Positions 257 through 64,000 of a DNA stretch of 64,000 bases are shown piece after piece (position 1 is the first letter of the stretch; each line of letters starts with the position of its first letter). The DNA is taken from contig NZ_KB217478.1 of the NCBI RefSeq assembly GCF_000331305.1, positions 5,367,595-5,431,594 on the forward strand, given 5' to 3'. Position numbers and translations under genes: made by a program. The notes under the pieces are model-generated. The model saw nothing but the letters and a program-made list of their open reading frames with translations. It was not told the DNA's origin and searched no databases. This DNA comes from Calothrix sp. PCC 7103 (GTDB lineage: Bacteria > Cyanobacteriota > Cyanobacteriia > Cyanobacteriales > Nostocaceae).

Positions 257-535
257 ATGGCAGTTTGGTTTGCTTTTTTCTTTCTACTGTTCGCTTTAGC
301 GGAATTATTTGACTGGGCAAAAGATTTTACTTTGCCTTTACCTATATACATACTTGGTGGCGCCTTTCTTGCGGTTGCTTCCAATTACAATAAACTAATG
401 GGTTCTTATTTTAACGAGACTCCAAACGTAATTCGCGATATTATACCCACTCAAGCAGTTAAACAAAGTAGTCAAGCGGTTGTTTTTGAGGCGCCTCAAC
501 CTGTAGAACATACCTTGCCTGCTTCGGATGAATAA
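257..535 (+). CDS. Small two-helix membrane protein, unknown function
   Basis: About 92 residues when started at the ATG at 257 (MAVWFAFFFL), which directly begins a hydrophobic helix. An in-frame start at 236 would add seven residues. There are two membrane segments, roughly residues 1-18 and 26-43, separated by a short charged loop (ELFDWAKDF). A soluble, Pro- and Gln-containing C-terminal tail follows. The gene stands alone, and a perfect 9-bp hairpin (541-549 with 562-570) lies just after the stop. I do not recognise a named family. The compact two-helix layout suggests a small inner or thylakoid membrane protein, which is inference only. Confidence 0.6.
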   Translation: MAVWFAFFFLLFALAELFDWAKDFTLPLPIYILGGAFLAVASNYNKLMGSYFNETPNVIRDIIPTQAVKQSSQAVVFEAPQPVEHTLPASDE

Positions 536-540
536 GAACG

Positions 541-570
541 CAACGGATGTAACGGATAATGCATCCGTTG
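541..570. repeat. ACGGATG-type repeat forming a hairpin
   Basis: CAACGGATG at 541-549 pairs perfectly with CATCCGTTG at 562-570. The loop contains another TAACGGAT unit. The same 9-nt unit recurs at 10400-10426 and 45129-45162. It follows the stop of the small membrane protein gene and could act as a transcript-end hairpin, although no T-tract follows. Confidence 0.55.
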
Positions 571-692
571 TAAATTTACATGTCTTGGTACTTATTTTAC
601 TGTTAATTATATTATAAGTAATGCTATAAAAGCTAAGTAATAAGACTTACAAAGCTTTTGAGCAAAAAATGAAAAAGAGATTGACTACTCAT

Positions 693-742
693 AAGACGTG
701 ATATATCCCTAGGGGAAAACCTCCGGTTTACACGTCTCTACA
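693..742. repeat. Dispersed ~50-bp palindromic element, copy 1
   Basis: The stretch from AGACGTG to CACGTCTCTACA has complementary ends and an internal segment (ATATATCCCTA, then GGGAAAACCTCCGGTTTA) that recurs nearly identically at 23951-24004. It sits just after the minus-strand coiled-coil gene. Two nearly identical copies 23 kb apart with paired ends point to a small non-coding mobile or structured repeat. Confidence 0.7.
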
Positions 743-743
743 T

Positions 744-1328
744 TTATTTACCCATTTGTCGTTTCATTCTTTGCAACTCGTCATCTGTTTCTAAACGAAC
801 AAATTGTTCTTCTAGGTCATCGAAGCTACTTGAGCTATTAGTTGACTTCCACCAACCGTCACTTTCTATACGCTGTTGGGTTTTTGTTTGCTTTTGAGCT
901 TGCGCGCGTGTTGCTTGCGCTGCTGTTGCTTTGGTTTGTACTTCCTGGCGCCGAACTTGAATTTTTTGATAAAGTTCTTTAGATTGTTTGATGCGGTCTT
1001 TTATACCTTGCATTTTTGCCCACTGCTGGTTTCCTTGACGCAGTAGTGCTGCTTCTCGTTCTTGTGCTGCGGATGCTAGGTCTTCACGGTTGGCAACTTT
1101 GGCTTTTTGTACTCGCTCATGCCATTTTTGAATTTCGGTTGCTGTGGCAAGAATTTCATCTTGGGAGCGTTTTTCTTGCAACTGCAAGTCCGCTATTAGT
1201 TTTAATGTATCTCCCTCTTGTTGACGCAACTGGTCTAACAGTGCTTCTAACTCCAAATGGGGGTTGTTTTTTAAGAACTCTTCTAAACGGCTTTCTAGAA
1301 ACCGACTCAAATCATCGAATAAGCCCAC
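744..1328 (-). CDS. Coiled-coil protein, TIGR04376-like cyanobacterial family
   Basis: A 194-residue soluble protein starting MGLFDDLSRFLESRLEEFL. Most of it (about residues 25-150) is a charged helical coiled coil rich in Gln, Lys, Arg and Glu. A short acidic tail follows with paired Trp (DGWWKS) and FDDLEEQFVRLE. There is no signal peptide or membrane segment. The N-terminal amphipathic helix and long coiled coil recall PspA/Vipp1-like architecture, but it matches better a conserved cyanobacterial family of unknown function that I remember as TIGR04376. The exact family name is recalled, not searched. The role is unknown, perhaps scaffolding or membrane association. The gene is monocistronic and ends inside the flank of a palindromic repeat. 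Confidence 0.75.
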   Translation of the reverse strand: MGLFDDLSRFLESRLEEFLKNNPHLELEALLDQLRQQEGDTLKLIADLQLQEKRSQDEILATATEIQKWHERVQKAKVANREDLASAAQEREAALLRQGNQQWAKMQGIKDRIKQSKELYQKIQVRRQEVQTKATAAQATRAQAQKQTKTQQRIESDGWWKSTNSSSSFDDLEEQFVRLETDDELQRMKRQMGK

Positions 1329-1467
1329 TGTTAGAACTCCAGGGTTGAGATGTCACATTCATTGTAATAATTATCGCCCCCATACGAAAAGTGGGTCATC
1401 GCACTTGAGTCATATATTGACCTGCGTTTCTTTAGCAATATCTTTAATGAAAACGAAAGTTTTGGGT

Positions 1468-1482
1468 AGAAACCCGGTTTCT
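1468..1482. repeat. AGAAACC-GGTTTCT palindrome
   Basis: The 15-bp near-palindrome AGAAACCCGGTTTCT lies just beyond the stop of the minus-strand M15 peptidase gene. The same motif recurs at 17284, 26257, 26307, 41820 and 41843, with degenerate copies near 45083 and 54641. Confidence 0.7.
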
Positions 1483-1487
1483 TAAAG

Positions 1488-2366
1488 TTATAGTGGTGTT
1501 AGCCAGTAGGTAATTCCTCTGACGATTTTTTTGTTGAAGCCAAAATCTGGTAATTTTTCTTCTGGTACACCTAAATAAGTCCAGTGAGGTAAATCTGTTT
1601 CTACAGTTTGGAACCAGCCATTTTGGTTTAAAGCTTTTCTTTGTGTTGCTGTCGCAACTCTTAAATCTATTGCTAAACCCCATAAGTGCTGTGATGTTCC
1701 TGGTGGCGCCACTACATTTAATATAGCTGTCTCTCGACCTTGCTTAACTCGTTCTAAAGTATTATTGTTGGCGTATTTTTTCCAAAATCTCAGATTTGTT
1801 TCGTATGTCCGTGTACAGTCACCTGCACCATATCCAGATTTTAAGGGAATATTGATTTGTTTGTCAGCGATATTGAATGCATCAGCAGCAGCTTTTTGCA
1901 GAAAGCAGTTATTTCCACTGTTGACTTTGCCCATTACTAAGCTTGCTTGGTAAGTTCTTGTTTCTTCAGGGTTGGGGAAAAATACTTTTGGTGGCAGTTT
2001 TATCCCTGAATTTAGATTAACAAAAGGCGCCCCATATTGACGCAACATAATATATTCAAACGTATTAGGATTGGGTATTAATGGTAGTTGAGTTGTAATA
2101 AAAGCTAAAAAACGCTCTTTTTGTGGTAATGCTAAGTTAGGAGTAGGTGTAGGAGTTAAAGATGGTGTGGGGTTTGTTATACATGGACGGTTTTGATTTG
2201 GACTTTTTAAGGCACCCTCAATTAAACAATCTTCGTTGGCTTTTAGGTCATTGGCGCCTGTAACATGATTTACATTACCATTACTAGCGACTAAAGTTAA
2301 GCTAGTGAATATCACCAAACAAATATAAATGCCTTTTTTGAATGATTTCTTTAATACACTATTCAT
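1488..2366 (-). CDS. M15-family D-alanyl-D-alanine carboxypeptidase-like peptidase
   Basis: A 292-residue exported protein. The N-terminus has a basic start and a hydrophobic segment (about 12-27), then a Thr/Pro linker (TPTPTP near 71-76). The C-terminal domain carries the M15 zinc-peptidase signature: SQHLWGLAID (S225, H227, D234) and the downstream ETDLPHWTYLG (E256, D258, H261). His227, Asp234 and His261 would bind zinc, with an acidic residue at 256 or 258 as catalytic base. Such enzymes (VanY, DdpX, L,D- or D,D-carboxypeptidases) trim peptidoglycan peptides in the periplasm. The spacing of the acid relative to the last His differs slightly from the common ExxH, so substrate specificity is uncertain. 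The start ATG overlaps the stop of a 50-codon ORF (ATGA), suggesting translational coupling. Confidence 0.8.
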   Translation of the reverse strand: MNSVLKKSFKKGIYICLVIFTSLTLVASNGNVNHVTGANDLKANEDCLIEGALKSPNQNRPCITNPTPSLTPTPTPNLALPQKERFLAFITTQLPLIPNPNTFEYIMLRQYGAPFVNLNSGIKLPPKVFFPNPEETRTYQASLVMGKVNSGNNCFLQKAAADAFNIADKQINIPLKSGYGAGDCTRTYETNLRFWKKYANNNTLERVKQGRETAILNVVAPPGTSQHLWGLAIDLRVATATQRKALNQNGWFQTVETDLPHWTYLGVPEEKLPDFGFNKKIVRGITYWLTPL

Positions 2367-2515
2367 ATACTTTCAACTAAAATTCCTTCTCGATAATCAT
2401 TTAGATTAATTAGTTCCATAAACGCTTGATGTCGCGATTTAGGTAAATTATATTCTTTGATGTCCTTTGCTGTAATAACGTTTCCTTGACGAGTTATAAT
2501 TTTTCCATGTTCCAT
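2363..2515 (-). CDS. Small 50-residue protein upstream of the M15 peptidase
   Basis: This minus-strand ORF begins MEHGKIITRQGNVITAKD and ends LVESI. It is 50 codons plus TGA, and its stop overlaps the ATG of the peptidase gene in an ATGA arrangement typical of coupled cistrons. The sequence is hydrophilic with no membrane helix and no motif I recognise. The frame stays open upstream to a stop at about 2582 but offers no other ATG. A fragment of a longer decayed gene cannot be excluded. The tight overlap is the main argument that it is real. Confidence 0.45.
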   Translation of the reverse strand: MEHGKIITRQGNVITAKDIKEYNLPKSRHQAFMELINLNDYREGILVESI

Positions 2516-2783
2516 AGCCAGTTTATTTTTTTGTCGTAGGTTAATTGAAGGATTTTCATTTGTGTGTGTGGATGGTTTTATTTAATACTTTGATTGTAAA
2601 GTTTAGATGAATTTTAGCTTATTCATGAGTGAATCTTGATTTGAATCGGCGATTAATAAAATAGTTCTATGTAGTTACAGGCATTGTAATTAATTTAACC
2701 TACCCTAAAGGCAATCTGAATTACAAAGTATGGTTTATTTCGGTTAAAATTAACAGTATCAAAAACATGCTTACTGAAAGTTT

Positions 2784-4706
2784 ATGACCATGCACGAAAA
2801 AGTAGAATTCCAAGACGCTTTCGATGTGGTCGTCGTTGGTGCAGGTCACTCCGGTTGTGAAGCTGCACTTGCGACAGCACGTCTTGGATGTCGTACTCTG
2901 CTGTTGACACTTAATTTAGATAAAATTGGTTGGCAACCTTGTAACCCAGCAGTTGGTGGCCCTGCCAAATCTCAATTGACGCACGAAGTTGATGCACTTG
3001 GTGGGGAAATTGGCAAGATGGCTGACCGTACTTATTTACAAAAACGTATTCTTAATTCTTCGCGTGGCCCTGCGGTTTGGGCTTTACGCGCGCAAACTGA
3101 TAAGCGTGAGTATGCGGCAATTATGAAAACTATTGTCGAGAACCAAGAGAATTTAATGGTTCGCGAAAGTATGGTGACAGATTTGGTGCTGGGTAAAAAT
3201 GATGAAGTCATTGGTGTTCAAACTTATTTTGGTGTCGCTTTTGAATGTAAAGCGGTAATTCTCACAACAGGCACTTTTTTGGGTGGCAAAATTTGGGTTG
3301 GTAATAAGTCAATGGCAGCTGGACGTGCGGGAGAATTTGCCGCAGAAGGTTTAACAGAAACCCTCAATCAACTTGGCTTTGAAACTGGGCGCCTCAAAAC
3401 TGGTACACCTGCACGTGTTGATAAGCGGTCGGTAGATTACAGCAAAATGATTTTGCAACCAGGTGATGTTGATGTGCGCTGGTTTAGTTTTGACCCAGAA
3501 GTATGGGTTGAGCGCGAACAACTTCCTTGCCATATGACGCGCACTACGAAAGAAACACATAAATTAATTAATGAAAATTTACATTTGTCACCTGTGTACG
3601 GTGGTTGGGTAGAAGCAAAGGGCCCACGTTATTGTCCTTCTATCGAAGATAAAATTGTGCGATTTGCTGATAAAGACAGTCATCAAATTTTTATTGAACC
3701 CGAAGGACGCGATATACCAGAACTGTATATTCAAGGTTTTTCAACTGGACTACCCGAAAATCTACAGCTACAAATGCTGCGAACTTTGCCGGGACTCGAA
3801 AAATGCGTAATGCTGCGTCCCGCTTATGCGGTAGAGTATGATTATTTGCCCGCAACGCAGTGTTTTCCGACGTTGATGACTAAGAAAGTTGAAGGTTTGT
3901 TTTGTGCGGGACAAGTAAATGGTACAACTGGTTACGAAGAAGCTGCTGCCCAAGGAATTGTGGCGGGAGTTAATGCCGCTCGATTTGTACGTGGTCAATC
4001 AATGATTGTATTCCCTCGTGAACAAAGTTATTTAGGCACGTTGGTTGATGATTTGTGTACTAAAGATTTACGCGAACCCTACCGAATGTTAACTAGTCGC
4101 TCAGAGTATCGACTTGTTCTACGTTCAGATAATGCCGACCAGCGTTTAACACCTTTGGGACGAGAAATTGGTTTAATTGATGACCGTCGCTGGGAAATGT
4201 ACACCCGTAAGCAAGCTAATATTACTGCTGAAAAAGAACGGTTGTATGCAACCAGAGTCAAAGAACATGACGAAGTAGGTAAACAAATTGCAAATGCTAC
4301 CGGGCAAGCTATTAAAGGTTCTATTACTCTTGCTGATTTAATCCGGCGCCCTGGTTTCCATTATATAGATTTGAATAAGTACCAACTTGGTAATACTGAA
4401 CTCGACCGCGCCGAAACCGAAGGTGCAGAAATCGATATTAAATACTCAGGGTATTTAGCACGTCAGCAAAGTCAAATTGAACAAATTGCTCGTCAAGCAA
4501 ATAAACAGCTACCTGCTGAATTAGATTATACATCGATTGAAACTTTATCAAAGGAGGCAAGAGAAAAGTTATCTAAGGTGAAACCCCTTACTATCGGTCA
4601 AGCTGCGCGTATCGGTGGAGTCAACCCAGCCGATGTAAATGCTTTACTAATCTTTTTAGAAATTCGTCAAAACCAGTCAGAGAAAGAATTTCCGGCATTA
4701 GCTTAA
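2784..4706 (+). CDS. mnmG: tRNA uridine-5-carboxymethylaminomethyl modification enzyme MnmG (GidA)
   Basis: A 640-residue protein of normal family length. The FAD-binding dinucleotide motif [10 protein letters not shown] is at about residues 19-28, followed by the family block [15 protein letters not shown] (51-65). A further conserved segment, [12 protein letters not shown], occurs near residue 380, and a C-terminal helical domain follows. With MnmE, MnmG installs the carboxymethylaminomethyl group at U34 of certain tRNAs, using FAD, NADH and methylene-tetrahydrofolate, in the cytoplasm. The ATG at 2784 gives [10 protein letters not shown] directly ahead of the Rossmann fold; the second Met (residue 3) is a near-equivalent start. 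The gene is monocistronic here, with no mnmE nearby. Confidence 0.97.
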
Positions 4707-4823
4707 AAAAAGCATTATGAAGCGCGAGTATAGTAGTAGGGTATACATCTAAGGGACTGATGCGATATATGACACATTTTTTTACTAGCTATTATCACTT
4801 AGTCCCGGATGAAAGCAAACTAT

Positions 4824-4847
4824 TTTCTCAGTATTTTTGCTGAGAAA
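4824..4847 (+). terminator. Hairpin in the gap between mnmG and the next gene
   Basis: TTTCTCAG (4824-4831) pairs with CTGAGAAA (4840-4847) around an 8-nt T-rich loop, about 120 bp after mnmG. No strong T-tract follows the stem, so intrinsic termination is possible but unproven. The rest of the 315-bp gap 4707-5021 holds one GGCGCC site (4927) and nothing else I recognise. Confidence 0.4.
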
Positions 4848-5021
4848 GAAATATAAGTTGTTGAATTAGTTACAAATTACTGGACAAATTCAATCGAACC
4901 CGCGTTAAATTCACTCACTTGCATTGGGCGCCCGACCCACTCCCATTGCTTAAAAGTACCCATTAAATGCGGTGAGGGTCATAATCCTAACCGCCCTAAA
5001 ATTCTATAACTGAAAGTCGTT

Positions 5022-6353
5022 ATGTCTACCGAAGCCAGTACCCATATTCTTCTAGAAGAACCATCTGAAGATTTAATCGTTAGCGAACCCTGGTCTATCG
5101 ACAATTATGCTGATGGTTTAATGGATGAACTTTTTGCTGATATTGACCATATTCTTGATGGAAAAAGCGCTATTCCTGTACATACCATCGAACCAGAATA
5201 TGTTCGTCTGCAAACAATTAAGGTGCCGCCTGTCGTTATTCCCCGAACTGAGCAGGTGACTGTTAATAACCAGCAGTTGAGTCAAGTTCGCAAAGAAAAA
5301 CAGACGAAAAACGCTGTTCCTAAAACTGTTATTAAACATCGCAAACCTCGACGCTGGTTAAATAAAGTATTTTCCTTAGCTGCAACTGTTGGTGTAGCAG
5401 CTGTGGCGATGGTTTGTATAAATAATTCTGGTTTGTTAAATCGTTTAGTGTCGCGTTCGTTCCAACAGTCGTTAATGGCGCCAAATGAAACCGCAACTAC
5501 AGAGGTCGATCAAGTTGCGGACGTGCAAACTGATTTAGTAAATTATATGCTCGGTGCCTTAGCCGCAATAGACCGACAAGATATTAAACTTTCAAATCAG
5601 TCTGCAAAATCTGCATATATGGCTGTTGCAAATCCTCAACCAATTACAATGGCTGGTACTCCCGCAGGACAACTGCCTCCTCCAATGGCAGCAAATAATA
5701 CTGCTCCTACTAATGGTCGTTCTACAACTGTAGTTGAACGTATCTATATTCCTGTATATCAGGCGCCTTTGCCAATGCGTTATGCACCACCACAAATTCC
5801 GGGTGTTCGCGGGACTTTACCACCAGTACCAACACAACCACAGTCACAAGCAGGTGCATTACCTCAAACTCCATCAGTAAAAACCGCACTAAATAATGTT
5901 GGTAAAAAACTTAATAACGCCACCAAACCTTTGAATGTGTTTGCTGCGGTACGTCCTGCACTCAAACCGCTAACCATCGCGCGTACACCAATTAATATCA
6001 ATCCACCAAAAGCACCGAGTGTAAATCTTTCAGCATTCCGTGCAATTCCACCGCAACTCCCAACCGCAAAACCAAAAGCACAAACCAATATAGAAACAGT
6101 TAGACCAGCACAACCACAACCTAAAGAAGTTGCTGTTGCTCCTACTAATCCTATTTCTCACACACTTGAGGGATTACTCGAACTCGGTGATAAATCTGCT
6201 GCTTTATTTAAAGTCAATGGCGTTACTCGGAGAATCGAAATTGGCGAAGCTATTGGTGCCAGTGGATGGACTTTAGTTGAAGTTGCCAACGGTGAAGCTG
6301 TTATTCGTCGCAATGGTGAAGTTCGCTCGATTTATGCTGGACAAAACTTTTAA
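5022..6353 (+). CDS. Membrane-anchored proline-rich protein with a GspC/PilP-like C-terminal domain
   Basis: A 443-residue protein in four parts: an acidic cytoplasmic N-terminus (1-105), a basic stretch (KHRKPRRW) leading into one membrane helix (about 113-133), a long Pro/Ala/Gln-rich linker (about 200-375), and a compact C-terminal domain (about 380-443). That domain contains ALFKVNGVTRRIEIGEAIG and ends GEVRSIYAGQNF. It resembles the small beta domains of type II secretion GspC and type IV pilus PilP proteins, where a 'result is null without this signal' pattern sets periplasmic contacts. This likeness is by eye. A role in envelope-spanning assembly is inferred. No pil or gsp genes are adjacent. 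An intrinsic terminator lies at 6497-6520. Confidence 0.65.
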   Translation: MSTEASTHILLEEPSEDLIVSEPWSIDNYADGLMDELFADIDHILDGKSAIPVHTIEPEYVRLQTIKVPPVVIPRTEQVTVNNQQLSQVRKEKQTKNAVPKTVIKHRKPRRWLNKVFSLAATVGVAAVAMVCINNSGLLNRLVSRSFQQSLMAPNETATTEVDQVADVQTDLVNYMLGALAAIDRQDIKLSNQSAKSAYMAVANPQPITMAGTPAGQLPPPMAANNTAPTNGRSTTVVERIYIPVYQAPLPMRYAPPQIPGVRGTLPPVPTQPQSQAGALPQTPSVKTALNNVGKKLNNATKPLNVFAAVRPALKPLTIARTPININPPKAPSVNLSAFRAIPPQLPTAKPKAQTNIETVRPAQPQPKEVAVAPTNPISHTLEGLLELGDKSAALFKVNGVTRRIEIGEAIGASGWTLVEVANGEAVIRRNGEVRSIYAGQNF

Positions 6354-6397
6354 TTAGTTTGGTTTATTTGAGAATCAGAATGCAATTTAATATAATT

Positions 6398-6478
6398 CAT
6401 CCCCCCAACCCCCCTTGTTAAGGGGGGGGGTAAGAATCTATCTATTCCCCCCCGAATTCGCGTTCTTGTTGGGGGGAT
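6398..6478. repeat. C-rich/G-rich inverted repeat
   Basis: CCCCCCAACCCCCC is followed by a run of nine G, then another C-run and G-run (CCCCCCC at about 6447, GGGGGG at about 6471). This matches a widespread cyanobacterial intergenic palindrome of the CCCCCAACCCCCCTT type. It lies between a stop codon and the terminator at 6497. The rest of the gap 6354-6897 is AT-rich and shows no further gene. Confidence 0.55.
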
Positions 6479-6496
6479 TAAAATTTTCTATTTTAC

Positions 6497-6520
6497 GCCT
6501 GTATTCGCAGGCTTTTTATT
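6497..6520 (+). terminator. Intrinsic terminator
   Basis: GCCTG (6497-6501) pairs with CAGGC (6508-6512) around a short loop. TTTTTATTT follows immediately. It lies 144 bp after the stop of the proline-rich protein gene and reads in the same direction. Confidence 0.65.
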
Positions 6521-6897
6521 TGGTGCTAAATAATATTATTCGATTAAATGAAATATGGGTGTAGGGGTTTGACACCTCACTGCTTACAACGAGCGAAATA
6601 CTTTATGTATTTATGCTGAAGTCAAAAATATTAGTTTTAGTTAATATTATGTTACTCAATTATTTATACATTGTATTTGGCATTAGATTAAGTGTTGATA
6701 TTGCTTGACGCATTCTATATTGAATTGACTAATTAATAATCACAATATATACGGTTAAAGCGGACGCGCGTATCAGTTGTAAGCTTTCTTGGAGTGGCGC
6801 CAGCGAAGCGATGACTTTTGACGCTACGTGTTAAACCTCACCCCAACCCTTTTTTTTTACAGAAGAGGGGAACAGATTAATATGTCAAAAGCATTGT

Positions 6898-9126
6898 ATG
6901 AAGTCATCTGATAAAACGTTAATGTTTAAGCAAGAAATATTGCTTCACCGCATTGCTAACCGTGTGCGGGAATCTTTGGAACTGAAAGACATTTTAAGCG
7001 CAATGACTGCGGAGATGCGTGCTTATTTAAATACAGACCGCGTAAAGATTTACCAGTTTAATTCCGACGGCAGTGGGGTAGTAATTGCAGAGTCACTAGC
7101 CGAAAATCGATTACCTTCTTTAATGGGGTTACATTTTCCTGCGGATGATATACCTTTATATGCGCGTGAATTGTTTGTACGGGCACGGCAACGCAGTATT
7201 GTTGATTTAACGTCGCATGAAATTGGTATTAGTCCTTTGAGTAACCCAAATGGAGAGATAAATTCAGACCAAGATATTCGTTGTCGTCCTGTTGACCCTT
7301 GCCACGTTGAATATTTAACGGCAATGGGGGTGAAATCATCTGTTGTTGTGCCAATTGTTTTGGAAAGCGAACAAACAGGTAAATATCAACCTCCTTCACT
7401 ACCTAAAGTTGCTCAGTTGTGGGGTTTATTGGTATCGCATCATTCTGAACCGAGGAAGGTGACAGAAGAAGAACTACAGTTAATTCAAGCAGTAGTTGAC
7501 CAGGTATGTGTTGCGATTTCACATTCCATTTTATTGAATCAAGTTCGCGACCAAGCACGTCAAGAAGCTAATATAAATAGTTTAACCAAAATTTTTTATA
7601 CTTCTCCTACCGTTAAATTACAACCTGCACTTGAAGAAGTAGTAAAAAGCTTGGATGGTTCAGGGGGAAGATTATATTTACTTGCTTCGGGTGAACAGTC
7701 AGTAGAAATTTTTACATACGGAATTCAGCCAGATGTAATACATATAGAAGAAAACCGGGTAATTGAACAAAATCGACTTTGGCAAAACTATTTGTATTCA
7801 GTCATAGAAACTGAAGTTGACCAAACGGGGTATAAACCTTGGTCAGTACAGTGGATGCGAAGCATATATGACATTGCTGAAGTATCAGACGAGCAAGTTA
7901 CTAGTACATTATGGGCAATTAGCGATTTATATCGAGAACCGTTATTCCGGACTTTGGCGCCTTATTTTGAATCTACTCAAATTCGTGGTTTATTAATTAT
8001 TCCCTTAGTGTTTGGCGCCACCATTCTCGGTTGTTTAACTATTTTCCGTTCCGAAATCGATACCGAAATTAACTGGGCAGGATATCATAACCCTGATACT
8101 AGACAATTAATGCCAAGACAGTCATTTGAAGTCTGGCGCCAAATTAAAACAAATCAAGTTCAAGCTTGGACTGAAGGTGAGGTTAAATATGCGAGTGCAT
8201 TAGGGGAAAGGTTTTCTACCGCTGTTGCACAATACCGTCTTTATCAGCAGGTACAAGGACTCAATACAAATTTAGAACTTCAAGTGCAAGATCGCACTAA
8301 GCACCTTAAGCAAACCCAAAGTCAGCTTATTCAAAGTGAGAAAATGTCGAGTTTAGGGCAGCTTGTGGCTGGTATTGCACACGAAATTAATAATCCTATC
8401 AACTTTATATATGGTAATATTCGCTATGTAGAAAATCATACTCAAACACTACTAAATTTACTTGCCAGCTATAAACAGCATCATCCTCAACCAACTCAAA
8501 GTTTACAAGAAGAAATTGAGCAAGCGGATATAGATTATATCATTAACGATTTGCCTAAACTGTGTCAGTCTTTAAAATCAGGCGCCGAGCGGATTAGTCA
8601 ATTAGTAAAATCACTGCGAACTTTTTCACGTTTTGACGAAGCTGAGGTAAAAGAAGTTGATATTCACGAAGGATTAGAAAGTACGCTTTTATTATTACAG
8701 CATAAGTTAGAGGCTGATTCAACAGAACAAGGCATAGAAATTATTAGACAATACAGCACACTTCCCTTGATTGAATGCTTTGCCAGTCAATTGAATCAAG
8801 TGTTTATGAATTTGCTAATTAATGCCATTGATGAACTGAAGGTATGTAAGACTGTGAACAAAAGTATTACTATCACTACTTCAATCTTAGATACAAAGTT
8901 TACACAAGTAGCAATTGAAGATAACGGTAGAGGAATTCAGGAAGATATTCAAAATAAACTGTTTGACCCATTTTTTAGTACTAAACCAGTTGGTAAAGGA
9001 ACTGGACTAGGGTTATCAGTTAGCTATCAAATTGTTGAGCGACATGGAGGAAAGCTTTACTACATGTCTCAAGAAAAGCAAGGAAGTAAATTCATTATAG
9101 AAATACCAATTAAACTTTGTAAATAA
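6898..9126 (+). CDS. PAS-less (knotless, Cph2-like) phytochrome histidine kinase
   Basis: 742 residues. An N-terminal GAF domain (about 15-210) carries the phytochrome motif PADDIPLYAR (81-90) and PVDPCHVEYL with Cys135-His136, the expected thioether bilin site. The next domain (about 225-450) has the PHY-domain tongue signature: INWAG (391-395) and PRQSFEVW (406-413). A coiled coil then leads to the HisKA H-box AGIAHEINNP (His495) and a HATPase domain (N-box NLLINAID, G boxes DNGRG and GKGTGLGLS). There is no N-terminal PAS domain, so the layout is GAF-PHY-kinase, as in group II phytochromes. It should sense red/far-red light and phosphorylate an unknown partner, since no response regulator is adjacent. 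The bilin assignment is inferred from motifs. The ATG at 6898 overlaps a 9-codon ORF starting at 6881. Confidence 0.88.
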   Translation: MKSSDKTLMFKQEILLHRIANRVRESLELKDILSAMTAEMRAYLNTDRVKIYQFNSDGSGVVIAESLAENRLPSLMGLHFPADDIPLYARELFVRARQRSIVDLTSHEIGISPLSNPNGEINSDQDIRCRPVDPCHVEYLTAMGVKSSVVVPIVLESEQTGKYQPPSLPKVAQLWGLLVSHHSEPRKVTEEELQLIQAVVDQVCVAISHSILLNQVRDQARQEANINSLTKIFYTSPTVKLQPALEEVVKSLDGSGGRLYLLASGEQSVEIFTYGIQPDVIHIEENRVIEQNRLWQNYLYSVIETEVDQTGYKPWSVQWMRSIYDIAEVSDEQVTSTLWAISDLYREPLFRTLAPYFESTQIRGLLIIPLVFGATILGCLTIFRSEIDTEINWAGYHNPDTRQLMPRQSFEVWRQIKTNQVQAWTEGEVKYASALGERFSTAVAQYRLYQQVQGLNTNLELQVQDRTKHLKQTQSQLIQSEKMSSLGQLVAGIAHEINNPINFIYGNIRYVENHTQTLLNLLASYKQHHPQPTQSLQEEIEQADIDYIINDLPKLCQSLKSGAERISQLVKSLRTFSRFDEAEVKEVDIHEGLESTLLLLQHKLEADSTEQGIEIIRQYSTLPLIECFASQLNQVFMNLLINAIDELKVCKTVNKSITITTSILDTKFTQVAIEDNGRGIQEDIQNKLFDPFFSTKPVGKGTGLGLSVSYQIVERHGGKLYYMSQEKQGSKFIIEIPIKLCK

Positions 9127-9204
9127 ACACCTACGTCGGGTGGGCAGTATTGGACTTAATGCTCGATATGGTGCCAAACTATAAGTAGAATTTTGTGTTT
9201 GAAC

Positions 9205-10410
9205 ATGTTTAACAAAAGCCGATTAATTTCATGGCTGGTACTACTACTTAGTTTAATTGCACTATTTTTAAGTATTTGGATTTTAATTCCTGCTCCCATA
9301 ATGCCACTGCTAGTATTATCGGTTGGCGCCCGTGAAGTTTGTCCGTGGTTGCTGGTCGCTAATACTATTATATTATTAACGGCATGGCTTTTACTTCGTG
9401 ACTCAGGACGGCACCTTGCTTTAATAGCTAGTTTAATAGGACTATTAATTTGCGGATGGGAACTAGCAAGCATTGCACCAGCACAAGCACAAATGGAAAA
9501 TGCGATGCGGCAAGAACTGGGGCAAGATTATTTAAATAAAATTCCCGCAGAAGCTTTATCGCAGATGCGAAGTACACCTTTTGCCTTTATTGACTCATTT
9601 CGAGGTATTTCTCAGGGCAAAACTCGTCATCTAGAAGGTGTTAGTTTTAACACTCCTGTTGGAGATGATTTAAGTATGGAAATCTATCAACCTCCAAAAA
9701 AAGGTATTTATCCTGTACTTGTAGTTATTTATGGTGGTGCATGGAGAAGTGGTAGTCCTAAAACTTATCCAGACTTTAATCGATATATGGCAGCACGTGG
9801 ATATACTGTATTTGCTATCGACTATCGTCATGCACCACGCTATCGTTACCCTGTGCAATTAGAAGATGTAATAGCAAGTTTAAATTTTATTCGTGAAAAC
9901 GCAGCTAAATATGAAGCTGATGCTGAACGGGTAGTATTGTTCGGACGTTCATCAGGTGCCCATTTGGCAATGTTAGCAGCATATAACAGTAATGTATTAC
10001 CCGTTCGAGGAGTAATTAGTTATTACGGCCCAGTAAATCTAACAGAAGGATATAACAATCCTCCACGTCCAGACCCAATTAATATACGCTTGGTGTTAGA
10101 TGATTTTCTTGGAGGTTCACCGCAACAACTACCTAAAAAGTATAAAGTAGCTTCACCGATAAGTTATGTAAAAAATAAAGTGGCGCCGACTTTACTAATA
10201 CATGGTAGTCAAGACCATGTGGTGGAAGCTAAATATGGAAGGCAAATATATCAAGGTTTGCGAAAAGAAGGTAATACAGCAGTTTTACTAGAAATTCCTT
10301 GGGCAGAACATGCTTTTGATACTGTTTTTAATGGGGTGAGTAATCAGTTGGCTTTATATCATACAGAAAGGTTCCTGGCTTGGGCAGTGAAGACTGGCAA
10401 CGGATTATAA
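9205..10410 (+). CDS. Membrane-anchored alpha/beta hydrolase (esterase/BD-FAE-like)
   Basis: About 401 residues from the ATG at 9205; a TTG four codons earlier (9193) is less likely. Three hydrophobic segments fill about residues 1-100. The hydrolase domain has the oxyanion-hole motif VIYGGAWRSG, the nucleophile elbow GRSSGAH, the acid region HGSQDHVVE and a C-terminal histidine in WAEHAFD. These identify the esterase/lipase-type alpha/beta hydrolases with a complete Ser-Asp-His triad. The substrate is unknown. The membrane part suggests the catalytic domain works at the membrane surface. The gene stands alone, downstream of the phytochrome kinase by about 80 bp, with no obvious terminator between them. 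Confidence 0.8.
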   Translation: MFNKSRLISWLVLLLSLIALFLSIWILIPAPIMPLLVLSVGAREVCPWLLVANTIILLTAWLLLRDSGRHLALIASLIGLLICGWELASIAPAQAQMENAMRQELGQDYLNKIPAEALSQMRSTPFAFIDSFRGISQGKTRHLEGVSFNTPVGDDLSMEIYQPPKKGIYPVLVVIYGGAWRSGSPKTYPDFNRYMAARGYTVFAIDYRHAPRYRYPVQLEDVIASLNFIRENAAKYEADAERVVLFGRSSGAHLAMLAAYNSNVLPVRGVISYYGPVNLTEGYNNPPRPDPINIRLVLDDFLGGSPQQLPKKYKVASPISYVKNKVAPTLLIHGSQDHVVEAKYGRQIYQGLRKEGNTAVLLEIPWAEHAFDTVFNGVSNQLALYHTERFLAWAVKTGNGL

Positions 10411-10426
10411 ACGGATGTAACGGATG
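10400..10426. repeat. ACGGATG-type tandem repeat
   Basis: Three closely spaced ACGGAT units straddle and follow the stop codon of the alpha/beta hydrolase gene. They are related to the copies at 541-570 and, in inverse orientation, 45129-45162. Confidence 0.5.
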
Positions 10427-10540
10427 AAAAGTTTTTGGGGAGCAACACTTTATTAAGGCTAGTAAGCAACAGCAAGTTTTCGAGAAAAATCGTTAGAAAT
10501 TATATAGGATTATTATACTTAGGTATGCGACAAAGGCAAA

Positions 10541-10804
10541 TTAATTATGCTTAAATTTCTCTTTGAGTAGTTTGAAGTAACGGATAACAAGTTTAATCGA
10601 ATTAGCAGTGATATCCGGTTGAATGGTATAAGCATAATTCACTGAATTTATAGAGCTACGAATTGTTAATAGCCCATCCACGTCATTAGTCTCTAAATGC
10701 GAGTTTCTTACTTCTAAATTGGGCAAGGCTTGAATATGTTTTAGGCACTTATTCAATAAGGGGTCATCTTGCTTCATGAGATGAAACTGTTTTGGCATAA
10801 TCAT
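10541..10804 (-). CDS. Hypothetical protein (87 aa)
   Basis: The protein starts MIMPKQFHLMKQDDPLLNK and ends KLLKEKFKHN. It is soluble, with mixed alpha/beta character and no signal peptide. A purine-rich stretch (GAAGAG) lies a suitable distance upstream of the ATG at 10804; the Met at residue 3 is an alternative start. I do not recognise the family. Its short length and the lack of a partner mean it could be a conserved small protein or the N-terminal remnant of a longer one. Confidence 0.5.
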   Translation of the reverse strand: MIMPKQFHLMKQDDPLLNKCLKHIQALPNLEVRNSHLETNDVDGLLTIRSSINSVNYAYTIQPDITANSIKLVIRYFKLLKEKFKHN

Positions 10805-10875
10805 TCTTCAACTCTTCTTTTTTATTTTAAATTAATGAACCATGAGTTTCAATTATAGGAGCTTCCAATTAAGAG

Positions 10876-10901: not shown

Positions 10902-10904
10902 AGT

Positions 10905-15560: not shown

Positions 15561-15573
15561 TGACATGACAAAA

Positions 15574-39850: not shown

Positions 39851-41179
39851 TTAAGCTGGTTCGGCGCCTAATTTATACATAGTTTGTAAAAGATGTTCGG
39901 CTTGTATTTCGTCGCCTAAGTCTTTATAAATTTGGTATGCTTGACGGTAGTGATGAATTGCATCACGATGTTGACGTAGTTTTTGGAAAACGGCGCCAAG
40001 TACAAACTCAACTTTGGCCCTTTCAGCATTAATTTTGAGTTCAGAAGCAAGAATTGACGCAGTGCGTAAAAAACCTATCGCTTTTGCGTACATGCGTTCG
40101 CGGTAATATATAGTACCAATATTAAAAAATAGTTGCAGTTGACTTTGCTTGGCGCCGATTTGCTCTAAAATAGAAAGCGACTGCTGATAATAAGTTAAAG
40201 CTTTATTTGTATTACCCATATTCTGGTATGTAATGGCAATTCTAGATAAAGCAGCAGCCTCACCATATCGATTGCCAATTTCACGACTAATATCTAAAGA
40301 TTCTAAATTGTATTTAATTGCTTGCTCAAACTGACTAGTTTGACTGCAAACATCGCTTAATCCCTGTAAAATGGCGCTTTTAACACGTTTTTCACCAATC
40401 GAGTAAGAAATGGATAGTGCTTTTATTAAAAAATCTTTTGCCTTCACATATAAGTTTTGCCCTTTATAAGCTTGTCCCAGACTATGAAGACTAACCATCA
40501 TTAAATCTTTATTATCGTTCTCGTGAGCAATAGCGTATGCTTCAGAGCAAAAACCGATGGCCATTTCCCAAGCACGCAGTTGGAGGTAAACACTACCAAG
40601 GTTAACGAGTGAATCACCAATACCCTTAGTGTCTTTTAGCTGACGTGCGATAGAAAGTGCTTTTTGCTCATATTCTAAAGACTTTTGAAAATCTCCCAAA
40701 AACTGATAAGCGTTAGCTAGAGACGAAAGCGCGCTTTTTTCCCAGTTGCGTTCATTCATTTCGCAAGCAATAGTTAGCTGAAGTCGGAAGCACTCAATTG
40801 CTTTTTGATACTGCCCTAGGTTTTGGTAGCTTGTACCTTCTCCCCAAAATCCTGCGATTTGGAGTACGCGATTTCCCGTCTCACGTGTTATTTGTATCAA
40901 ACGTGAAAAATAATTAATTGACTCATTAAACTTGCTTAACTGACGAAAGCAATTTGCTGTGTTATATAAGGAAACTTCTTGCTGACTTTTATCGTCTAGG
41001 TGTACAGCAATTTTTAAAATGTGCCGATGGTATTCAAGTGCTTTGGCAAACTCAAATGAGCTTTCATGGGCAGCAGCGAATTGACTCAAGCAGTGTATTC
41101 GCGCTTTGTCGTCTTGAAACTGCCAGTTAGTAGGCATTTCGACCATGTTTAAAAGTTTCGGTTGAGAATCTTGAGTCAT
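39851..41179 (-). CDS. Tetratricopeptide-repeat protein
   Basis: 442 residues from the ATG at 41179 (MTQDSQPKLLNMVEMP); a longer frame from 41242 has no support. The chain from about residue 20 to 430 is nearly all TPR repeats of about 40 residues, such as ALEYHRHILKIAV, SLEYEQKALSIARQL and ALTYYQQSLSILEQIG. The spacing matches the 40-residue TPR_12/Rapsyn-like type. No enzymatic domain or signal peptide is visible. TPR arrays mediate protein-protein contacts, so it is probably a scaffold; the partner is unknown. Monocistronic. Confidence 0.85.
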   Translation of the reverse strand: MTQDSQPKLLNMVEMPTNWQFQDDKARIHCLSQFAAAHESSFEFAKALEYHRHILKIAVHLDDKSQQEVSLYNTANCFRQLSKFNESINYFSRLIQITRETGNRVLQIAGFWGEGTSYQNLGQYQKAIECFRLQLTIACEMNERNWEKSALSSLANAYQFLGDFQKSLEYEQKALSIARQLKDTKGIGDSLVNLGSVYLQLRAWEMAIGFCSEAYAIAHENDNKDLMMVSLHSLGQAYKGQNLYVKAKDFLIKALSISYSIGEKRVKSAILQGLSDVCSQTSQFEQAIKYNLESLDISREIGNRYGEAAALSRIAITYQNMGNTNKALTYYQQSLSILEQIGAKQSQLQLFFNIGTIYYRERMYAKAIGFLRTASILASELKINAERAKVEFVLGAVFQKLRQHRDAIHHYRQAYQIYKDLGDEIQAEHLLQTMYKLGAEPA

Positions 41180-41242
41180 TAGTAGATGTATGTGTGTAGG
41201 ATTTACATGGAGTCTAAACAGATAAACAGATAAAACTGACAA

Positions 41243-41888
41243 ATATATCTCAATATATTGCTATGCAGTCAGAAAACGTTTTAGTTATAAATCACTAGTT
41301 TACCTCATGTTCGTTTTACTATCGTATGCAATACAACGTTTTTAATGTTGTATATAAAACATTTGCACTCATCAGTCAGAGTAATGTATTAACAACAACA
41401 TTCGTGCGCTTACAGCATAGAAGTAAGTTAAGTACAAATATATTTTAGTTAGCGTATTCTTACATCCTCCACTATAAATATCTATGCTGGGTAAAAAACA
41501 GCACTTTATTTAAAGTTCCACTCATGTACGCAGGTCTATGAAGCAATAATAATTATCTTTCTCTCAAGTCATAGGAGGGTAATGTCCCCTCACTCATTTA
41601 TAAAAGCAGCGCGCGACTATAAAAATTGTAATAATTACTATTTTTTCGTAAAGACTTAGTAAAGTGAAAATGCTTATCCATCAGTCTGGAAGCGTCATAT
41701 AACGCAGTGAGTAAAATTAATTAAAAATCATCACTAAATTAATTTCAGTAGAATTGTATAATTTATGACTTGCACTTATATCAAATAATCAGCGACAATT
41801 TAATAGTTTAAGAGAAACTAGAAACCCGATTTCTATCTATAAAGAAACCGGGTTTCTTAAGTTTATTATAAAACTTCCATCATACTTT
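41243..41888. other. Intergenic region with two AGAAACC palindromes
   Basis: An AT-rich gap with no coding frame. AGAAACCCGATTTCT (41820-41834) and AGAAACCGGGTTTCT (41843-41857) lie about 30 bp before the next start codon. No GGCGCC occurs between 40157 and 42112, one of the longest gaps of that motif in the window. Confidence 0.5.
41820..41857. repeat. Pair of AGAAACC-GGTTTCT palindromes
   Basis: Two copies of the dispersed 15-bp palindrome, one perfect and one with a single mismatch, separated by 8 bp, immediately upstream of the gene at 41889. Confidence 0.72.
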
Positions 41889-42695
41889 ATGAATAAGTTA
41901 CAAAGGGAGCGTAAAGACGACGAGACAGTGCTATTGATTAATCAACTCAAGTATGGAGTTTGGTTACTAGGTGTTACAGCTTGGTTATTTGCTATAGTAG
42001 AAAGAATAATAGCAGTAGCTGCTTGTACATATTTTAGTAAAGAAATTTTTCAAACATTAATTATTTGTTTATTTTTAATTACATGGTTGTATTTACAGCC
42101 AGAAACTAATCAGGCGCCTGTGAGTTTACGTTCATCGCATATAATTAGCCAAGAGTATATTTTGCCGTATCCTTATTTATGTCAGATATATCACTTACTC
42201 AATTTAAAGCATTTAGAAACAATTCATAACTTTAGCCTTAATAACCTGAAGATAAATAGCATAACTCAGGTACAGACAACAAGCCAAGGTGGAATTATAA
42301 AGTTTCAAACAAGTTTAGACTCACCAATAAACGCATTAAGGATGTGGCGTTCTAAAAGCGTAGAAGTTGATTTAATACTGCATAACCCTTATACTGTCGA
42401 ACTGAGTATTCCAGTTTACAACCAAAAGCGTATGGTTGTATTATTCAACGTCTTACCATTGACAAAAAACGAGCATTACTTCTTTATTGATATTTATGGG
42501 GACTTACAGTGGTGGATAAAGCCATTGATGAAAGTACTTTTACACTTCGCTGCTGCAATTACGCTTTTTGAAGACTTGCCTTATTTGCGTGCATTGTCAG
42601 AGCGTAATATTGAGAATTTATTCCACAGTCACAAATCCTCAAGCCATGAAACTATGTATCTATATAACCGATACATAGAATTATGTAACACCTAG
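41889..42695 (+). CDS. Hypothetical membrane protein (268 aa)
   Basis: The N-terminus is hydrophilic and charged (MNKLQRERKDDE). Two membrane helices follow at about 27-50 and 53-72. The remaining 190 residues are mixed and contain HLLNLKHLETIHNFSLNNLKI, SIPVYNQKRMVVLF and FIDIYGDLQWWIKPLMKVLLHFAAAITLFEDLPYL. I recognise no family, catalytic motif or signal peptide. The codon use and clean start suggest a real gene. A peripheral role at the inner or thylakoid membrane is the only inference possible. Confidence 0.6.
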   Translation: MNKLQRERKDDETVLLINQLKYGVWLLGVTAWLFAIVERIIAVAACTYFSKEIFQTLIICLFLITWLYLQPETNQAPVSLRSSHIISQEYILPYPYLCQIYHLLNLKHLETIHNFSLNNLKINSITQVQTTSQGGIIKFQTSLDSPINALRMWRSKSVEVDLILHNPYTVELSIPVYNQKRMVVLFNVLPLTKNEHYFFIDIYGDLQWWIKPLMKVLLHFAAAITLFEDLPYLRALSERNIENLFHSHKSSSHETMYLYNRYIELCNT

Positions 42696-61854: not shown

Positions 61855-61868
61855 GTAACATACGTTAC
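61855..61868 (+). promoter_or_regulatory. NtcA-type site in the gifA promoter (likely repressing)
   Basis: GTAACATACGTTAC matches the NtcA consensus GTA-N8-TAC exactly. A -10-like TATGAT lies at 61883-61888, only 14 bp after the site, so bound NtcA would cover the -35 position. This arrangement fits repression by NtcA, the known regulation of gif genes in other cyanobacteria. The start codon is at 61940 with GGGAG nine bases upstream. Confidence 0.72.
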
Positions 61869-61939
61869 AGAATTAAATGCGATATGATTAGCTTAGACAA
61901 GAAAAGAAATAACTAAGAGTTCATAGGGAGAAGTTTATT

Positions 61940-62134
61940 ATGTCTACACAAGATAAAGCACGCGCGTTAATGCAACGTCACTATCACACAGTAAAAAATC
62001 GCCAGCAATCGATGTTGGGACGTACTGGTGAAGAAATAGGTTTGACTGGAGAAGTTTCTGATTATTGGAATCCCTTGCAAGGTAAGATTGACCCAAGCAA
62101 GCGCGCGACTTATGATAGCACTTCGATGAATTGA
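61940..62134 (+). CDS. gifA: Glutamine synthetase inactivating factor IF7 (GifA)
   Basis: 64 residues: MSTQDKARALMQRHYHTVKN, then RQQSMLGRTGEEIGLTGEVS. It matches cyanobacterial IF7, a small basic, intrinsically disordered protein that binds and inactivates glutamine synthetase when nitrogen is abundant. The arginines reported as critical in IF7 (positions 8, 21 and 28) are all present. The gene is convergent with glnA, sharing the terminator at 62158-62190, as in some Nostocales. The promoter carries an NtcA-type site (61855-61868) consistent with repression under nitrogen limitation. I saw no glutamine-riboswitch motif in the short 5' region. Confidence 0.88.
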   Translation: MSTQDKARALMQRHYHTVKNRQQSMLGRTGEEIGLTGEVSDYWNPLQGKIDPSKRATYDSTSMN

Positions 62135-62157
62135 AAGAATTTCTACGATAGTCAAGA

Positions 62158-62190
62158 AAAAGCCACCCTTTAGAGGTGGCTTTGTTTTTG
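62158..62190. terminator. Bidirectional intrinsic terminator between gifA and glnA
   Basis: GCCACC (62162-62167) pairs with GGTGGC (62175-62180) around a 7-nt loop. AAAAA precedes and TTTGTTTTT follows, so a T-tract is present on both strands. Confidence 0.75.
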
Positions 62191-62228
62191 GGAATGTTTT
62201 TGGAAAGAACTTAAGTCCTTTATTACTA

Positions 62229-63647
62229 CTAGCAGTCGTAGTAGAGTGCGAACTCATGGGGGTGAGGACGCAAACGCATGGGGTTGACTTCGTTATCTAT
62301 TTTGTAAGCTATCCAGTTTTGGATGAAGTCTTCGCTAAATACACCACCCTCTGTTAAGAAAGCATGGTCTTTCTCTAATGCTTCGAGTGCTGCATCAAGT
62401 GAACCTGGGGTTGAAGGAACTTTTGCTAGTTCTTCTGGTGATAATTCGTAGATGTTTTTATCTAAAGGTTCGCCTGGATCTATTTTATTCTTGATACCGT
62501 CTAAACCTGCACATAACATTGCTGCAAATGCTAAGTATGGGTTAGAGGTCGCATCTGGACAACGGAATTCTAAGCGTTTTGCTTTGGGATTGGTGCCAGA
62601 TAATGGAATACGAATAGAAGCTGAACGGTTACCTTGGGAGTATGCTAAGTTTACAGGCGCCTCATAACCAGGAACTAAGCGCTTGTATGAGTTAGTGGTA
62701 GGGTTAGTTATCGCTAATACAGCAGGTGCGTGCTTGAGCAAACCACCAATATAATGTAAAGCAGTTTCACTTAAACCAGCATATTTATCGCCAGCAAATA
62801 ATGGTTGACCATCTTTCCAAATCGACTGGTGACAGTGCATACCAGAACCATTATCACCAAATACAGGTTTGGGCATGAAGGTTACGGTTCTGCCATACTT
62901 TTTAGCGACGTTCTTGATGACATATTTATAAGTCATCAACCAGTCAGCAGCTTGGATTAATTTACCAAACTTGAAACCTAGTTCGCACTGACCACCAGTG
63001 GCTACTTCGTGGTGATGTTTTTCAATGGGGACACCTAACTTCGCCATTGTTAACAGCATCTCTGTCCGCATGTCTTGGAAAGTGTCGGTAGGAGCTACTG
63101 GAAAATAACCTTCTTTGAAGCGGGGTTTGTAACCTAAGTTTCCACCAGCTTCTGTTCTACCTGAATTCCATTTACCTTCGATAGAATCTACATAGTAGTA
63201 ACCAGAACTGGAATTTTGGTCGAAGCGAACATCATCAAAAATGAAAAATTCTGCTTCTGGCCCAAAAAATACTGTATCGCCAACACCAGTAGAAATTACA
63301 GAATCTACCGCGCGTTGAGCAATTTGACGAGGACAACGGTCGTAAGGTTCACCAGTACGAGGCTCAATAATGCTACAAACTATTGAGAGCGTTGGCTCTT
63401 GCATGAATGGGTCTATCCATGCTGTATCTGGGTCGAGAACCATCGACATGTCACTAGCTTCAATTCCTTTCCAACCCCGAATACTCGAACCGTCAAAAGG
63501 TACACCTTCGGTGAAGCTGCTTTCATCGATTTGGTTTTGGTACACCGTTAAGTGCTGCCAAGTTCCCAACATATCGATGAACTTCAGGTCAATCATCTGA
63601 ATGTTGTTGTCTTTAACCAACTTCAGGACTTCTTGTGGGGTTGTCAT
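62229..63647 (-). CDS. glnA: Type I glutamine synthetase GlnA
   Basis: 472 residues, a normal GSI length. Key blocks are intact: [17 protein letters not shown] (glutamate/ammonium loop), [15 protein letters not shown] (metal site), [30 protein letters not shown], and NRSASIRIP with the C-terminal YDCs end. The enzyme makes glutamine from glutamate, ammonium and ATP, the entry point of nitrogen assimilation. The tyrosine in [10 protein letters not shown] corresponds to the adenylylation site of enteric enzymes, but cyanobacteria use inactivating factors such as the adjacent gifA instead. The start ATG at 63647 has AAGGAG upstream. An NtcA-activated promoter lies at 63748-63789. Confidence 0.97.
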
Positions 63648-63747
63648 GGTTACTCCTTATCTGCCTAATTACTTTACAGTCAATTCATAAAGCCCAAAGC
63701 AATAGCTGACCCTGCTTGGCTAAACCAAATTTTTACACACCTGGATT

Positions 63748-63789
63748 ATCGTAAGAAGAGGTTGTCCAGAATTTTGTATTCATTGATAC
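63748..63789 (-). promoter_or_regulatory. Canonical NtcA-activated promoter of glnA
   Basis: On the minus strand GTATCAATGAATAC (63776-63789) fits GTA-N8-TAC. It is followed after exactly 22 bases by TACGAT (63748-63753), a match to the -10 form TAN3T. This is the class II NtcA-activated promoter layout described for nitrogen genes in cyanobacteria. The transcript would begin near 63741, leaving about 95 nt of 5' leader before glnA. Confidence 0.82.
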
Positions 63790-64000
63790 AGAATTTCGGA
63801 ATTAAAGGTTATATTAACCTTTAACTGTTCATAACGATACAAAACTACAAAGTAGATTTTCTTACGCGCAACTTTGACATAAAATCCTTTATGAGAGTGC
63901 GAGTTGCGGCGCCGAAATATTATTGTAGAGGTATGAAGGCAACACAATTGCTATTCTCATGCATTTATTGCATAACGAAACAGCCAAATTAATATCAAAC
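63790..64000. other. Right edge, no gene
   Basis: About 210 bp upstream of the glnA promoter show no coding frame longer than 20 codons, no repeat family member and one GGCGCC site (63908). The next gene lies outside the window. Confidence 0.5.

Follow-up and report, generated by a model that had tools for sequence, protein, structure and literature searches.

The stretch analysed here, 64,000 nucleotides of the genome of Calothrix sp. PCC 7103 (contig NZ_KB217478.1, positions 5,367,595 to 5,431,594; hereafter the window), raises a simple question: why is it filled with the palindrome GGCGCC and free of HIP1 (highly iterated palindrome 1, GCGATCGC), a word whose own purpose has, to our knowledge, been a standing question since the 1990s? 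The answer that we favour, as a rather probable one, is that GGCGCC is an old methylated mark which took the place of HIP1 and persists through weak selection for the six-base word. The window holds exactly 108 sites, the first at 359-364 and the last at 63908-63913:

359..63913, no strand assigned: 108 GGCGCC sites, mean spacing 594 bp, against a mean of 4.99 in shuffled sequence.

An earlier note on this DNA had given, by hand count, about 108 sites or one per 600 bp in coding and non-coding DNA, no HIP1, an estimated G+C content of 38-40% and an expectation of 3-5 sites, and all of this was borne out. The G+C content is 38.75%, base composition alone predicts 3.4 sites, 100 dinucleotide-preserving shuffles never exceeded 11, and HIP1 is found 0 times in the 64 kb against 0.23 expected in the shuffles. 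Among the 6-base palindromes of the window, GGCGCC ranks first on both rankings computed. A maximal-order Markov model of the window itself expects 57.5 sites, a value which we read as high because the 5-mers of the model come largely from the GGCGCC sites.

The whole genome (G000; 11,584,393 bases in 12 contigs) contains 17,704 GGCGCC (1,528 per Mb) against 8 copies of the reversed control CCGCGG, and 163 GCGATCGC (14.1 per Mb) against 58 of its control word. Set against Markov models, as the earlier note had advised, GGCGCC shows observed-to-expected ratios (O/E) of 19.7 (order 1) and 22.8 (order 2) in 464 kb, and HIP1 proves scarce genome-wide. These counts agree with the note's view that GGCGCC is the alternate HIP where HIP1 itself is missing, which is already in print: for Calothrix PCC 7103, Elhai 2015 (PMC4390886) names this very word, and the table entry for the strain, as we read it, lists 14 HIP1 and 159 CAGGCGCC per Mb. 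We counted 175 CAGGCGCC per Mb in 864 kb of G000, and the HIP1 density of this genome is matched by none of the six other genus members. Full-text searches of openly available papers, judged by title and abstract, brought up no further paper on GGCGCC in these strains. The additions made here are the genus-wide scope, the solitary HindVP-type methylase, the decay footprint and the loss-gain balance.

That composition, codon use or repeats lie behind the count has next to no probability. In another 464 kb stretch with mechanical calls of open reading frames (ORFs), 654 of 759 sites were coding and 105 non-coding, and the commonest coding frame, GGC GCC (Gly-Ala; 344 of the 759), is the one point in favour of codon use. 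Against it, an O/E of about 20 persists after composition is accounted for, the genome has 8 copies of the reversed word, and the 105 sites outside called ORFs amount to 1,064 per Mb.

The distribution of the word was followed in a set of 60 genomes including G000 (7 genus, 29 other family and 24 order members). GGCGCC reaches 1,150-1,711 per Mb in all seven genus members, and none of the 29 other family members comes to this level (3-530 per genome, 0.3-108 per Mb); among the order members, the highest count is that of G043, with 2,493 in 6.2 Mb. HIP1 is reduced to 31-163 copies per genome (3.6-23 per Mb) throughout the genus, against at least 200 per Mb in every other family member except G028 (28 of 29). 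Two loci of 22 kb, from Calothrix HK-06 and Dulcicalothrix desertica PCC 7102, contain 35 and 39 GGCGCC, respectively, and no HIP1. All seven genus members show a shortage of GATC in the stretches fetched (O/E 0.11-0.39; outgroup 0.97). Exceptional HIPs were described as sporadic and not in clades, in the terms of Elhai's text (PMC4390886); since GGCGCC is abundant in 7/7 genus members and in 0/29 other family members, it is here a clade trait, which suggests, from sequence, that the mark is common to the whole genus of Calothrix PCC 7103. In a class survey of 388 genomes, in which G000 was the sole genus member drawn, no other genome had GGCGCC so high and the control so low. G450 has a denser GGCGCC (9,489 in 3.8 Mb) but 2,450 copies of the control, and in several small genomes both counts are high, a joint excess which high G+C could explain.

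Some observations on word use stand beside this pattern. In the window, GATC (9 against 139 expected) and GGCC (11 against 71) are both strongly avoided; in the fetched stretches, GCGCGC is over-represented in the genus (2.0-4.1 times) and depleted in outgroup loci (0.29). A weaker excess of GGCGCC over the control was seen in G043 (2493/38), G575 (3074/165) and G463 (1169/25), which are possible independent or transitional cases; G043 also carries 2,362 HIP1. Outside the genus, G028, with 535 HIP1 and 326 GGCGCC in 10.7 Mb and a CGATCG-type methylase, is another genome that has largely lost HIP1.

The methylase usually associated with HIP1 was searched in the same 60 genomes (threshold E 1e-50) with a C5 methylase from G024, which we take to be CGATCG-specific from its resemblance to such enzymes and its observed distribution. 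Matches were obtained in 51 of the 60 genomes and in 28 of the 29 other family members, and at this threshold none was obtained in any of the seven genus members, nor in G026 and G042. On the GGCGCC side, C5 methylases (PF00145) number 9-17 per genus genome, 89 in total, of which seven weak fragments (at most 60.6 bits) were left out. When the rest were clustered at 60 and 70% identity, three groups proved to be present in all seven genus members. A group of 370-398 aa was rejected as the determinant, as it is not genus-specific: matches of nearly full length occur outside the genus, in 19 of the 29 other family members (68-75% identity) and 4 of the 24 order members (56-69%), and partial ones in 3 more. 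Another (L011) was also rejected, being broken in G006 and present in the HIP1-rich G017. The third is a 313-aa C5 methylase (G000:C7:8004469-8005407), with a best match of 81-100% in 7/7 genus members. In a survey that scored at most ten candidates per genome, its relatives (55-73%), whole or partial, were found in 56 other family genomes, which together with the genus makes 63 of 217.

This methylase is flanked, in six of the seven genus members, by a RuBisCO-like gene on its upstream side and by a GHL10/SLH gene on its downstream side, the latter only in part in G005. The copy listed for G006 is at a different locus, beside a partial paralogue (G006:C60:8058-10042); two 95-96% methylase fragments were also seen at contig starts of this genome (G006:C29, C207), and this copy split over two contig ends is perhaps the original. 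No nuclease is found among the direct neighbours of the gene in G000, and a 435-aa gene two positions upstream, beside another methylase, has no Pfam or NCBIfam match. At the outgroup loci, a neighbouring ORF belongs to one cluster in 16 of 23 cases, and Pfam names two of its members RE_HindVP. This nuclease family (PF09519) is matched in 6 of the 60 genomes and directly adjoins a relative of the 313-aa methylase in all four family members that possess it. Since it is matched in 0/7 genus members, their enzyme is a solitary methylase and not part of a HindVP-type restriction-modification (R-M) system. The six holders of RE_HindVP contain 3-88 GGCGCC each, which is no proof of restriction because many genomes without the nuclease are equally low.

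The 313-aa methylase and its nuclease-paired relatives are 68-77% identical in the target-recognition region and 63-72% in the catalytic region; as the former is no less similar than the latter, the specificity is probably GRCGYC. The motif R-R-(G/A) upstream of PSPT(I/V) is present in 6/6 aligned genus members (G006 left out) and in 12/12 non-paralogue relatives, so that, in an alignment that does not include M.BsaHI itself, these enzymes have the conserved Arg that precedes the TL motif, with Gly or Ala next to it at the position which PMC2413257 links to degenerate recognition. Comparison with the PDB returned general C5 methylases only, and the names of homologues give no indication of specificity. 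The earlier note had inferred a methylation-linked process and advised looking for a methyltransferase specific to GGCGCC and lacking a partner nuclease; a conserved solitary C5 methylase and a C-to-T decay mainly at the inner C (see below) point to such a process, but the enzyme looks GRCGYC-type and not GGCGCC-specific. In GRCGYC, the C methylated by M.BsaHI is the central one (Neely and Roberts 2008, PMC2413257), and GRCGYC was reported by RIMS-seq as an m5C (5-methylcytosine) motif of Haemophilus influenzae Rd (PMC8565308). The site methylated by GRCGYC enzymes was not known to the author of PMC4390886, according to its passage on them. It is quite probable that the BsaHI/HindVP-type methylase of the genus makes GG(m5C)GCC.

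To what extent are the sites themselves conserved? Each of the six other genus members was aligned to 464 kb of G000 surrounding the window (265, 150, 114, 57, 29 and 16 kb), so that everything said on site evolution covers at most 265 kb per pair, and the fate of GGCGCC in the first 264 kb was compared with that of flanking hexamers. Sites were kept more often than flanks in G004 (314/356 against 1066/1417), G003 (68/81 against 142/322), G002 (154/176 against 493/699), G005 (76/84 against 255/336) and G001 (6/13 against 11/52), and by a small difference in G006 (41/46 against 151/184). Other GC-only hexamers were kept in 629/840 cases in G004 and 100/179 in G003. Non-coding sites go in the same direction (41/54 against 129/208 flanks in G004; 6/10 against 15/40 in G003), and the hexamers that flank a site 9-12 bp away change at an average pace.

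The way in which sites decay is more specific. Changes were compared with an expectation matched for trinucleotide and codon position, in six pairs which all share G000 and are therefore not independent. Over all pairs, transitions at the inner C/G (C3) were near expectation (259 observed, 298 expected; 0.87), whereas every other class of change within sites fell to 0.30-0.39 of it. In the single pair G000/G004, C3 transitions numbered 99 against 107.8 and all other classes 103 against 301. We read this pattern as a retention of about 3-fold combined with m5C deamination at C3; C-to-T decay concentrated at C3, together with the methylation of that very base by M.BsaHI, indicates that the sites are probably GG(m5C)GCC. 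In the same 464 kb, C3 transitions were 70 from G004 to G000 and 29 in reverse; in the lineage of the window, C3 transitions seem to remove sites more quickly than in the sister G004.

The words one change away from GGCGCC bear on the rival explanations. The only enriched one is GGTGCC/GGCACC (1.39; 0.34 in the outgroup), and the others are depleted (0.08-0.81, order 1), with GACGCC at 0.15 and AGCGCC at 0.52. A Vsr-like enzyme converting T:G mismatches at GGTGCC into GGCGCC, by very-short-patch repair as known for E. coli Dcm sites, has that precedent in its favour and would still be a very improbable cause: GGTGCC is enriched rather than depleted, and Vsr (PF03852) went unmatched in 60/60 genomes, against matches in 5 of 14 control genomes, so that we rejected it. 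Uptake sequences of Haemophilus and Neisseria are the model for a further possibility, in which the competence machinery would favour GGCGCC and the word would be spread and maintained through transformation. A genome-wide word with retention limited to the site and even counts per bin would fit such an uptake word; near-miss words are depleted and not enriched, gains are rare, and the tie to methylase loss and the C3-biased decay are left unexplained, which makes it improbable.

The balance of gains and losses was examined at 191 positions with at least four genomes aligned. GGCGCC is present in all genomes at 85 of them, in all but one at 58, in one only at 14 (11 of these in G003) and in a mixed manner at 34, whereas for 12/12 control words the one-only positions outnumber the all-but-one positions. 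With G003 as outgroup, G000 and G004 differ by 23 losses, 2 gains and 7 ambiguous cases, and losses exceed gains in ten of ten overlapping pairs even if all ambiguous cases are counted as gains. As hexamers other than sites are less conserved, we estimate that this procedure is biased towards losses by a factor of about two. From this pattern, most sites predate the split of the species and new sites are rare.

This is of consequence for the ratchet proposed by Elhai, in which a G(m5C)-dependent mismatch repair and a GRCGYC methylase convert near-miss words, leaving GGCGCC as a by-product without function and coming to a stop once sites are dense. The depletion of all near-miss words except GGTGCC is in agreement with it, as would be a methylation of the inner C, and one site per 594-609 bp with even bin counts fits saturation. 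On the other hand, recent gains are few, and the retention is limited to six bases while, in our own inference, repair directed from a site should shield its surroundings too; moreover, the nicking enzyme of the model is hypothetical in the account given in PMC4390886. The excess of losses over gains speaks against a ratchet running now, and a mutational ratchet, as judged from the alignments, does not appear to be running. We regard the ratchet as an unlikely explanation, although the least unlikely of the rivals, and take it as likely that the retention reflects weak purifying selection on the methylated word with no ongoing ratchet.

The spacing of the sites was considered as well. In 464 kb, site counts in bins of 2-10 kb are more even than random (Fano factor 0.75-0.84), against 1.31 at 5 kb for a control placement on GC-rich words, and gaps below 50 bp are scarcer than expected (0.033 against 0.079). 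Selection for coverage was nevertheless set aside, since retention did not clearly depend on the nearest site in a permutation test of four genomes; an apparent dependence in a version based on the union of sites was dropped and put down to misaligned pairs.

Several points weigh against GGCGCC being a methylated mark under selection. The methylase search was confined to C5 methylases (PF00145). G027 has a relative of the 313-aa methylase (69%) and no HindVP nuclease, yet only 277 GGCGCC in 6.5 Mb beside 6,611 HIP1, so that the methylase alone is insufficient; GACGTC and GACGCC, which are also GRCGYC sites, are depleted in G000; and some HindVP-family nucleases are inactive, HindVP itself included, according to the sections on this family in PMC2413257 and PMC3488263. 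A strict link between HIP1 and its methylase is weakened by G026, where the CGATCG-type methylase is absent at the threshold used and 5,328 HIP1 are present, and by G028, where the methylase is present with few HIP1. As for the decay, the C3 ratio depends on direction and pair and spans 0.56 to 1.24, the small class of C5 transversions in G003 has a ratio (0.65, 11 changes) no lower than that of C3 transitions (0.61), and from G000 to G004 a small transversion class and C3 transitions both stand at 0.57; the excess of GGTGCC could also be a tolerance of this word. Finally, gap lengths are near exponential overall (coefficient of variation 0.95), the window alone gives mixed Fano factors by bin size (0.70, 1.02, 0.25), and retention against distance to the next site gave permutation P values of 0.25, 0.50, 0.10 and 0.55 in the four genomes.

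Three places in the window illustrate the history of single positions:

3388..3393, no strand assigned: single GGCGCC site in the ORF 2784-4706, with other words in 31/31 aligned Nostocales outgroup loci.
4284..4291, no strand assigned: lost HIP1 position, GCGATCGC in 31/31 outgroup loci and CAAATTGC in the window.
40151..42118, no strand assigned: longest inter-site gap of the window, 1,962 bp from start to start.

At the first of these, the most frequent outgroup word is GAAGGC (8 of 31 loci), and since all outgroup loci have other words the site is new to the lineage of the window; for the five window sites with aligned outgroups, GGCGCC occurs in 0 of 119 outgroup readings. The lost HIP1 position shows no in-place replacement by GGCGCC, and the idea that GGCGCC was built on former HIP1 positions was rejected, as 0 of 6 outgroup HIP1 positions (window 1-16000) are GGCGCC in the window. 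The longest gap overlaps a TPR-repeat gene (39851-41242, minus strand). Long gaps had been proposed in the earlier note to mark newer DNA; in the window they are ordinary (a gap of at least 1,962 bp has a probability of 0.98 among 108 randomly spaced sites), and the idea suits another region, G000:C7:3800001-3820000 (6902-19255 within it), which has 5 GGCGCC in 20 kb and a G+C content of 35%. It carries a run of polysaccharide genes: the 7 of its 16 listed ORFs that were scanned encode mostly glycosyltransferases and methyltransferases, besides a polysaccharide flippase and a protein with a weak match of the Wzy kind, and the region is probably newer DNA still without the mark.

Taken together, comparison of the genomes gives the same pattern in 7/7 genus members: almost no HIP1, no match to a CGATCG-type methylase, avoidance of GATC and a solitary methylase gene. 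In the simplest history, HIP1 and the CGATCG-type C5 methylase would have been lost in the stem of the genus, GATC would have come to be avoided, and a BsaHI/HindVP-type methylase would have been held without the HindVP nuclease, making GG(m5C)GCC. In the aligned DNA, most sites predate the split, their six bases being kept about 3-fold better than matched bases beside flanks of average rate, with losses above gains, probably through weak purifying selection on the methylated word. By analogy, the mark may do the job of HIP1, its likeliest role being that of a densely spaced label of strand or chromosome in mismatch repair or DNA maintenance, which we put forward tentatively. A G(m5C)G core would be common to HIP1 and GGCGCC and could be recognised by a single reader; if that reader needs a G before m5C, as Elhai proposed, this would explain why the word is GGCGCC rather than GACGTC. 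It is conceivable, though doubtful, that the genus exchanged its genome-wide methyl mark, a leftover HindVP-type methylase being co-opted and thousands of GGCGCC built in the stem lineage, now held by selection while eroding by m5C deamination, so that what cyanobacteria conserve would be a G(m5C)G reader and not one palindrome. A whole genus in which one word has cleanly replaced another, with a single candidate methylase and HIP1 missing, amounts to a swap experiment made by nature: the features shared by the two words (the G(m5C)G core, a C5 methylase, a spacing of 0.6-1.1 kb, retention) would be those that matter, and their differences could be discarded. A decay footprint at a single base would, furthermore, predict which cytosine carries the methyl group.

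Among known systems, the closest is the alternate HIP of Calothrix PCC 7103 as presented by Elhai, with which our case shares the word, the range of density, the lack of HIP1, the loss of the usual CGATCG C5 methylase and the presence of GRCGYC methylases; it departs from that account, in the form given there, by its extent over the whole genus, by the age and erosion of most sites, and by a decay that indicates the inner C. Three of the features that define an alternate HIP are found here: a GC-rich palindrome within about 1,000-2,000 per Mb (1,528), HIP1 scarce in the same genome and, by homology, a methylase that would be able to modify the word. On the fourth, methylation of the word in the cell, the C3-biased C-to-T decay bears indirectly. 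The definition of HIP1 itself, GCGATCGC with GATC and CGATCG methylases, does not apply, with 0 copies in the window and no match to the CGATCG-type methylase at E 1e-50. HIP1 with its M.Ssp6803I-type CGATCG methylase is alike in being a dense GC-rich palindrome tied to a C5 methylase and in its methylated C in a G-C-G context, which for GGCGCC is inferred; it differs by its word, its methylase family and its internal GATC, which GGCGCC lacks. In Synechocystis 6803, HIP1 occurs once per 1,131 bp and its first C is m5C, as stated in PMC6604393. The BsaHI/HgiDI/HgiGI/HindVP R-M systems (GRCGYC; PMC2413257, in its description of the family) resemble the genus in their methylase family, as seen from the association of relatives with RE_HindVP and from the target-recognition features; unlike them, the seven genus members have no match to the HindVP nuclease, and one of the target words, GGCGCC, instead of being avoided, is enriched about 20-fold.

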